A stretch of 35,949 nt of DNA, from NCBI GenBank assembly GCA_947628515.1, contig CANRAG010000014.1, forward strand, positions 1 through 35,949, read 5' to 3'. Source of the DNA: an uncultured Clostridia bacterium. Its GTDB lineage: Bacteria > Bacillota > Clostridia > UBA1381. This document shows positions 1-10,929 of this stretch, piece after piece. The number at the start of each line of letters is the position of its first letter. Position 1 is the first letter of the stretch. The notes beneath the pieces were generated by a model. The model ran no database searches, had not been told where the DNA came from, and saw nothing but the letters and a program-made list of their open reading frames with translations. The translations under genes and the position numbers were made by a program.

Positions 1-128
1 TGTCCCAGAGCGCGCAATTTCCCATAATGTTTTGCGCGCGGCGGGACGGCCTGTTCCGCAGAGGGCTTCGCGATACAGTCTCAATGCATAATGCGATACA
101 GTGCCAATGTAGAATAAGCGAAAATTTA
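1..128 (+). repeat. Truncated copy of a dispersed stem-loop repeat (right half)
   Basis: Bases 1-82 match the reverse complement of 10155-10233 exactly, apart from one 3-base insertion near base 40. The shared unit is a GC-rich stem-loop containing two GCGCGC arms, then CGATACAGT words (71-79 and 94-102), then a terminal segment ending in CGAAAATTTA at 128 that resembles both ends of the element at 10047-10703. The window edge cuts this copy, so its other half is not visible. It codes for nothing I can support and ends about 45 bases before the rho promoter. Confidence 0.85.
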
Positions 129-170
129 TATAATTTTAATTCAAAAATAAAAATAAGGCTTGCATAGATA

Positions 171-199
171 TTGACATTTAAAGGTAGATGATATATAAT
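171..199 (+). promoter_or_regulatory. Sigma-A type promoter of rho
   Basis: A perfect TTGACA (171-176) and a perfect TATAAT (194-199) are separated by 17 bases. Transcription would start near 206, leaving a leader of about 83 AT-rich bases before the rho start codon. rho is commonly autoregulated through its leader, but I see no clear hairpin here that shows it. Confidence 0.85.
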
Positions 200-9934: not shown

Positions 9935-9976
9935 TAATCCGTACGAGCGCGGTATATACCACGCCCGTACGGATTA
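9935..9976 (+). terminator. Intrinsic terminator after the ger operon
   Basis: TAATCCGTACG and CGTACGGATTA form a perfect 11-base-pair stem around a 20-base loop that can pair further (GGTATATACC). It is followed by the T-rich stretch TTGTGTTATT. Confidence 0.75.
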
Positions 9977-10179
9977 TTGTGTTATTACAATTCAATTGAG
10001 CCGCTTTTCGCTTTTTAAGACAGCGGAATATTAAACAATATAACAGTAAATTTTCATTTATCTCACCATTGGTACAATATCGCTCGTGCATATGGCGCTG
10101 TATTCGGACAATCCCTACAAAATATATGTGGCACTGTATCGCATATATGCATGTGAGACTGTATCGCGAAGCCCTCTGC

Positions 10180-10242
10180 GGAACAGGCCGTCCCGCGCGC
10201 AAAACATTATGGGAAATTGCGCGCTCTGGGACAACCTGTTCC
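10180..10242. repeat. Stem-loop A inside the 657-base element
   Basis: Nested perfect arms in order: GGAACAGG, then GTCCC, then GCGCGC, an 18-base loop, then GCGCGC, GGGAC and CCTGTTCC, with only short bulges between. Read on the minus strand the loop is AATTTCCCATAATGTTTT, which is also the loop of the copy at the window start. Confidence 0.9.
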
Positions 10243-10543
10243 GTGGGCTTAACATACTGTATCGTATGCGGTGCATGCGGCAATCACATTGTTTATACTA
10301 TGACTCTTAAATACAGTATCATGTATGTATATACTGTGCTGTATCGCATGGTTCCCTCTGTAATTCATGTGCAAATTTTTGCAATGTTCACATAAAAGAC
10401 TGTATCGTGTGTGCTAATACAGCGGACTATATCAAATTCTTCTATATAATTTATGCAATTTATCTACTCTGCCCCATGAGACAGATTATCGTTGCGCGTG
10501 CGGAGAAATATGTTTCGCATTGGAATATGTTAATCACGGATTT

Positions 10544-10609
10544 GGGGCGGTGTGCCGTCGGAGCGCGCATTTCCCTTTGTCCTAGCGCGCGGAGAGGGCA
10601 TACCGCCCC
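10544..10609. repeat. Stem-loop B inside the 657-base element
   Basis: Outer arms GGGGCGGTGTGCC and GGCATACCGCCCC pair over 13 bases with one G-U, enclosing GCGCGC/GCGCGC arms around ATTTCCCTTTGTCCTA. It is a diverged, inverted counterpart of stem-loop A: same GCGCGC inner stem and the same ATTTCCC in the loop. Confidence 0.88.
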
Positions 10610-10800
10610 ACAGAAGCCGCGCGATAAAGTACCGCATGCATATGCAATACATTCTCACATGCATATGCAATACAGTGCCACTTGTAGAATAAACGAAAAT
10701 TTATTAACTTTGTTGGATAAGCTGACGGTAAACGGTGGTCGTTTTAAGGCCGAACAATGTTTTCGTAACAAAAATGTAAATAAAGATTAGCAAAAAACTA

Positions 10801-10829
10801 TTGAAATTGTGGTTGATATATGATAGAAT
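10801..10829 (+). promoter_or_regulatory. Upstream promoter P1 of the BMC operon (candidate)
   Basis: TTGAAA (10801-10806) and TAGAAT (10824-10829) with a 17-base spacer, just beyond the right end of the 657-base element. Weaker than P2, but well spaced. Confidence 0.5.
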
Positions 10830-10900: not shown

Positions 10901-10929
10901 TTTACAAAGAAGGTAAAATGTTGTATAAT
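10901..10929 (+). promoter_or_regulatory. Main promoter P2 of the BMC operon
   Basis: TTTACA (10901-10906) and a perfect TATAAT (10924-10929) with a 17-base spacer. Predicted start is near 10936, giving a leader of about 47 bases to the aldolase ATG. Confidence 0.8.

Follow-up and report, generated by a model that had tools for sequence, protein, structure and literature searches.

A 658-bp, protein-free foldback element in an uncultured Clostridia bacterium appears to belong to a non-autonomous MITE family that is confined to one species, mobilized in trans by a DDE transposase of the ISAs1 family and targeted to promoters, a reading to which we assign a probability of roughly 70%. The transposase would recognize an outer TIR (CACGGTTTTTGAATGAGTTAA...), integrate the element at a new site and create a 10-bp target duplication. 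That target would be the stretch 10-19 bp upstream of a sigma-A-type -35 box, so that the inserted element comes to lie 19 bp from the -35 and the core promoter is left intact. Such targeting would most likely be achieved by docking of the transposase on promoter-bound RNA polymerase or on the shape of the promoter DNA, and the palindromic interior of the element, with its arrays of 23-bp words and two hairpins, would be a non-coding passenger. The copy described below is most likely a fossil whose two outer TIRs have been lost.

This copy occupies positions 10046-10703 on the forward strand of the analysed stretch of 35,949 nucleotides (hereafter the window). It is flanked on one side by a GerA-type spore germination operon and on the other by an operon that starts with a class II aldolase and that the original prediction named a BMC operon. 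Only the family interior is present, with no ISAs1-type outer TIR detectable at either end. From left to right, it begins with a sub-terminal repeat, GTAAATTTTCATTTATC (10046-10062, forward strand), which is preceded by TA and was delimited by the aligned ends of 15 copies. There follow a left array of 23-25-bp words (ATATGCATGTGRGACTGTATCGC; 10123-10169, forward strand), arranged as direct repeats with a spacing of 25, and a left hairpin (10169-10250, forward strand; DNA fold of -30.6 kcal/mol, z = -6.3). The right half mirrors this order, with a hairpin that has an additional 3x3 purine internal loop (10543-10610, forward strand; -26.4 kcal/mol, z = -3.7), an array of the same words in inverse orientation (10620-10686, reverse strand; inverted pairs I1, I2, and I4), and the inverse sub-terminal repeat (10687-10703, reverse strand), again delimited by aligned copy ends and followed by TA. 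Both hairpins have a GCGCGC inner stem beneath a 16-nt loop of (A)ATTTCCC type. Thus, the inverted ends, the word arrays and the two diverged, opposed GCGCGC hairpins of the original prediction are all present: the inverted arms 10123-10146/10663-10686 and 10145-10167/10644-10666 are 88% and 91% identical, respectively, and the left hairpin arm, when aligned with the inverted right one, is 72% identical along 106 bp (E = 1.9e-7). The window contains 9 instances of the word CTGTATCG, where 0.9 would be expected, and the whole element, folded as DNA, is self-complementary far above its shuffles (z = -9.8). The window has no Rfam match to a known structured RNA. The 3x3 purine internal loop of the right hairpin also occurs in a third, otherwise different element on contig C106. 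Separately, a nearly perfect 21-bp inverted repeat with no spacer follows the germination operon (9935-9976) and is probably terminator-like or a palindromic site.

Blastn searches of the genome's own assembly (2.9 Mb in 224 contigs) with the element gave 57 local matches and placed copies on about 20 contigs, and a sequence model of the family gave 28 matches at E < 1e-3, mostly to the ends. Near-full copies lie on C130 and C150, with another on C94, and partial ones on C182, C133, C105, C84, C79, C153, C179, C68, C132, C86, C29, C20, C51, and C189 and at positions 1-137 of the window. Many contigs stop inside a family copy, which is the behaviour of repeats in short-read assemblies; the true copy number is therefore higher than our count. 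The hairpins vary freely from copy to copy, and many copies lack them or have them truncated. In this genome the exact hairpin pattern is present 14 times; in 198 others, among them 15 congeners, it is absent (reversed-pattern control, 0), and similarity searches with the whole element gave nothing in 120 relatives, leaving this genome alone among the 121 searched. These results dispose of two objections anticipated along with the original prediction, namely that the element might exist at only two loci or might sit at the same site in all relatives. Scans for the exact pattern beyond the species, in GTDB and viral contigs, returned hits that were chance-like where inspected, and phage and plasmid collections gave no match to the hairpin. 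By these sequence searches, the MITE family is restricted to one species.

Several look-alikes and neighbours of the family may be recorded here. The sole intergenic look-alike among the inspected hits, a hairpin of the same GCGCGC-A-GTTTTCC...GCGCGC type in a Gemmiger genome (L075:994-1023), is likely a chance resemblance. The congener G004 has a MITE family of its own (L296-L303, L208, L219) with nearly the same sub-terminal motif, AATTTCAGTTTATCGGAC, and with different interiors made of GC-rich hairpins of the type CTCCCTC...GAGGGAG. Genes of the Rpn family (PD-(D/E)XK nucleases) end right next to MITE pieces on C29, C128, C182, and C127 (L134, L281, L256, L041), and each of these four contigs stops within the Rpn gene; either a larger element carries Rpn as cargo or MITEs gather behind Rpn genes. 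A further repeat in this genome (L131, L161, L162), which ends in ...TTCTAAAAACGGG, has three copies with different flanks, of which one lies within the ISAs1 copy and another next to a tRNA-like sequence.

Alignment of the copy ends places the family boundaries farther out than those of the window copy. The ends originally proposed hold for this copy to within about 2 nt but are not those of the family: most related copies run 30 or 41-44 bp past them, to the terminal repeat CACGGTTTTTGAATGAGTTAA. Twelve family ends match this outer TIR at 14-19 of 21 positions and at fixed offsets, with a consensus that was refined on the same ends later scored; among 3000 random 60-bp windows, a score of 14 was reached 12 times and never exceeded. 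The same repeat bounds an ISAs1-family insertion sequence, both ends of which are present in this genome as repeats at contig ends. A 1260-bp copy of this IS in the congener G003 (C110:8682-9940) contains a single gene, which encodes an ISAs1-family transposase (NF033564, E = 7e-114); the C-terminal codons of the same transposase, DKQFKCLLDSAYLDKIVNNWICS, lie just inside the IS end of our genome. The MITE-end consensus is identical to the left end of the G003 IS at 32 of 38 positions (0 of 2000 shuffles), and the inner part, which was unused in finding it, matches at 12 of 18. Indeed, the best match outside this genome to a model built from MITE ends alone is the same G003 IS end (E = 3.6e-4). 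Because the family ends and the ISAs1 element share their terminal repeat, the ISAs1 transposase is, on this sequence evidence, the most likely mover of the family. The expectation that the element is MITE-like, encodes no protein, is multi-copy and depends on an enzyme elsewhere is thereby borne out, and the route suggested with it, to seek a transposase gene with matching ends, led to the likely enzyme class. The 658-bp element has no homology to the ISAs1 transposase. In this draft bin, the transposase gene body is absent and only the IS ends and C-terminal codons are present; the cognate IS and the MITE are never complete together in one genome. A full ISAs1 copy of this species should carry the TIR CACGGTTTTTGAATGAGT.

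Several elements bounded by this TIR have duplicated 10 bp of their target. Perfect 10-bp duplications flank a 734-bp element of this genome (CTATATTCGG), elements of 195 and 202 bp in G027, and one of 428 bp in G014. For the IS itself, the contig-end pairs C85/C93, C161/C79, and C42/C16 share 10-bp flanks (CCTTTAACAT, AAGCATAAAT, and CTCAAAAAGC), as read by eye, with the pairing itself inferred because the contigs break within the IS. No MITE of this genome in which both outer ends can be read has a clean 10-bp duplication; the flanks of the hairpin-bearing copy on C130 match at 6 of 10 positions only. The 734-bp element (G000 C3:770-1503, L128) is TIR-bounded, has a non-transposase interior and is possibly a cargo-capturing ISAs1 derivative; its left end holds a nested palindromic mini-element of 49 bp. 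At two further loci (G000 C42:21267-21302 and G014 C93:199-234), new insertions adjoin an existing TIR end, with exactly a 10-bp duplication between them.

An unexpected property of these ends is their position relative to promoters. A genus-wide search returned 51 exact sites of the 13-mer TTCAAAAACCGTG, distributed over nine of 16 genomes (reversed-pattern control, 0), and these sites together with further loci, a few of them drawn from other genera in the same family, yielded 55 distinct flanks. Promoters, all of them predicted and of sigma-A type, were scored as a TTGACA-like and a TATAAT-like box, each with at least four of six matches. At 25 of the 55 exact TIR ends there is an outward-directed promoter with its -35 exactly 19 bp away and a spacer of 17, while every other offset has 0-2 promoters of that spacer; offset 19 holds 25 of the 45 promoter-like hits (P = 6e-30). 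Since each element has two ends, this proportion of about half is near the maximum expected. Shuffled flanks give a mean of 0.28 and a maximum of 3 in this register (500 shuffles), and the inner side of the TIR ends has at most two promoter-like hits per offset. The column profile of the flanks peaks for TTGACA at positions 19-24 and for TATAAT at positions 42-47, an extended TG is present in 17 of the 25 in-register promoters, and the 25 flanks are not homologous to each other (at most 52% identity outside the boxes). The perfectly duplicated 195-bp element of G027 and 428-bp element of G014, together with the three IS pairs, follow the register at exactly one end, as do, with weaker boxes, the 202-bp element of G027 and the 734-bp element of this genome. 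Among 15 MITE ends examined in this genome, six have the promoter at 19, two at 20, and one at 18; the other six comprise four with a strong displaced promoter (at 4, 13, 14, and 32) and two without a promoter. The alpha C-terminal domains of RNA polymerase touch the promoter region 10-19 bp upstream of the -35. An enterobacterial ISAs1 (WP_024250307 and a near-identical copy) has no promoter at this spot at any of six right ends; hence, the register is not a property of the ISAs1 family as a whole. On balance, it seems probable that, in uncultured Clostridia, an ISAs1 lineage and its MITEs evolved insertion at a distance of 19 bp upstream of the -35, precise to the nucleotide, independently of the Mutator-type TnGBS, ISLre2 and ISKra4 elements; the transposase would presumably dock on RNA polymerase bound at the promoter.

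Other explanations of this pattern and of the element's architecture fare less well. If ISAs1 elements inserted widely and only the harmless insertions just upstream of core promoters persisted, this would accord with the elements being intergenic and often facing gene starts. Harmlessness, however, cannot give single-nucleotide precision (25 cases at 19 against 0-2 at neighbouring offsets with a spacer of 17), and recent insertions with perfect duplications follow the same register, making such survivorship improbable. We are slightly more sceptical still of the idea that TTCAAAAACCGTG is a host operator, held at a fixed promoter position in a regulon and later co-opted as element ends. Activator sites typically keep a fixed spacing upstream of the -35, and some of the sites seem to stand alone (e.g., on C127), but no exact site exists in seven of the 16 congener genomes, and the sites form the ends of the IS and of mini-elements that have perfect 10-bp duplications, with either orientation to the promoter represented. 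The least credible alternative, to which we give hardly any weight, is a REPIN-like element mobilized by the RAYT-like tyrosine transposase of the genome, a connection that the original prediction had entertained. The inverted pair of hairpins recalls it, and there is one RAYT-like gene in the genome (C85:3991-4326; NF047646, 75.2 bits, just below the cut-off of 80). Yet its 11-kb contig has no hairpin, many copies have missing or truncated hairpins, and what the copies conserve are DDE-type TIRs and 10-bp duplications rather than a hairpin with a foot motif.

The main rival, which we regard as unlikely but worth retaining, invokes a nested origin. Here, the inner unit, TA followed by AATTTTCGTTTATC ... 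GATAAACGAAAATT and a second TA, would be a separate TA-duplicating MITE of the Tc1/IS630 type that entered ISAs1-type mini-elements once or more; only the composites would carry ISAs1 TIRs, and the window copy would be a pure TA-type insertion. A TA duplication for the whole family was an early idea that now survives only in this form. All TIR-less copies break at the same point, between TA and AATTTTC, with the TA outside (both ends of the window copy, both on C51, the left on C20, and C14_1), and the TIR-less end in the congener G004 breaks at the same place in several elements. It is because simple decay does not predict such a common break that the nested origin is kept as the main rival. 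Against it, the constant distance to the TIR (30 or 41-44 bp) demands either that insertion recurred at one TA or that all copies go back to one founding event, the left ends of the IS run on as TTTGTRAATTTT past the first 20 bp, such that AATTTT can be ordinary TIR, and the TA before AATTTT is also present in about half of the TIR-carrying ends.

At the window copy, the outer TIR score is 11 of 21 on both sides, which is the null level (gapped alignment, p about 0.6), and we see neither a target duplication nor a promoter in the 19-bp register. Because the outer TIR is missing on both sides and there is no duplication, the copy is probably an immobile relic. The GerA-BMC neighbourhood is not conserved in congeners, so that no empty site is obtainable there. 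The original prediction had also envisaged a role at the BMC promoters. Two of these are predicted on the forward strand outside the element from an alignment of 11 congener upstream regions, an upstream one (TTGAAA-17-TAGAAT, 10801-10829) and a downstream one (TTTACA-17-TATAAT, 10901-10929), with the element ending 98 bp before the first -35. As this double promoter is conserved in the 11 congeners without the element, the latter is not part of the BMC control region, and the regulatory role is not supported for this copy. The second, truncated copy at the left edge of the window (1-137, reverse strand) is 95% identical to 10129-10233 (model E = 1.1e-13), and the contig end falls inside its left hairpin. 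A stretch at 127-152 on the reverse strand, TTTTTGAATTAAAATTATATA, is suggestive of a decayed ISAs1-type outer TIR (gapped alignment, p = 0.06), and a predicted promoter, TTGACA-17-TATAAT (171-199, forward strand), is directed away from this copy 18 bp from its inferred outer end.

The hairpin block can thus be assigned to a family whose ISAs1-type partner has been identified, and a second transposase family, unrelated to the Mutator type, appears to read promoter position. If so, this would be a convergent route by which mobile DNA enters genomes without breaking genes, and the insertions would amount to a natural catalogue of the promoters that are active in uncultured Clostridia. Recognition of RNA polymerase or promoter shape by a DDE transposase would also become testable with a small enzyme of 374 aa. 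The parent IS conforms to the ISAs1 (H-repeat) family in its TIR, its DDE_Tnp_1 transposase (NF033564, PF13808 and PF01609), its length of 1.26 kb and its short direct target duplication, but this lineage differs in having a 10-bp duplication and a fixed promoter register. The two inverted hairpins resemble the REP/REPIN elements associated with RAYT, although here the TIRs are of DDE type, the hairpins are much larger and nothing ties them to the RAYT-like gene. A further structural parallel is BrickBuilt, which along with other MITEs of Porphyromonas gingivalis has IS-derived TIRs and internal repeats of about 23 nt (PMC4596501). Like our family, BrickBuilt is an intergenic MITE with TIRs from a full IS and with decayed and truncated copies; in contrast, it is a tandem minisatellite with a leader and tail and with TIRs assigned to IS5-family ISPg elements, and the parts of that account available to us report no promoter register (PMC4596501). 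With respect to targeting, TnGBS and ISLre2 insert 15-17 bp from the -35 of sigma-A promoters, with contact with RNA polymerase proposed for TnGBS, and part of the ISKra4 family also targets promoters (PMC3942029). In our limited search of the literature, promoter targeting was described for Mutator-superfamily elements only, with no report found for ISAs1. The systems share a fixed distance upstream of sigma-A promoters and insertion in both orientations when the inverted repeats are symmetric; however, the known cases use a Mutator-type transposase and a distance of 15-17 bp (PMC3942029), whereas the elements described here use an ISAs1/DDE_Tnp_1 enzyme and a distance of 19 bp.
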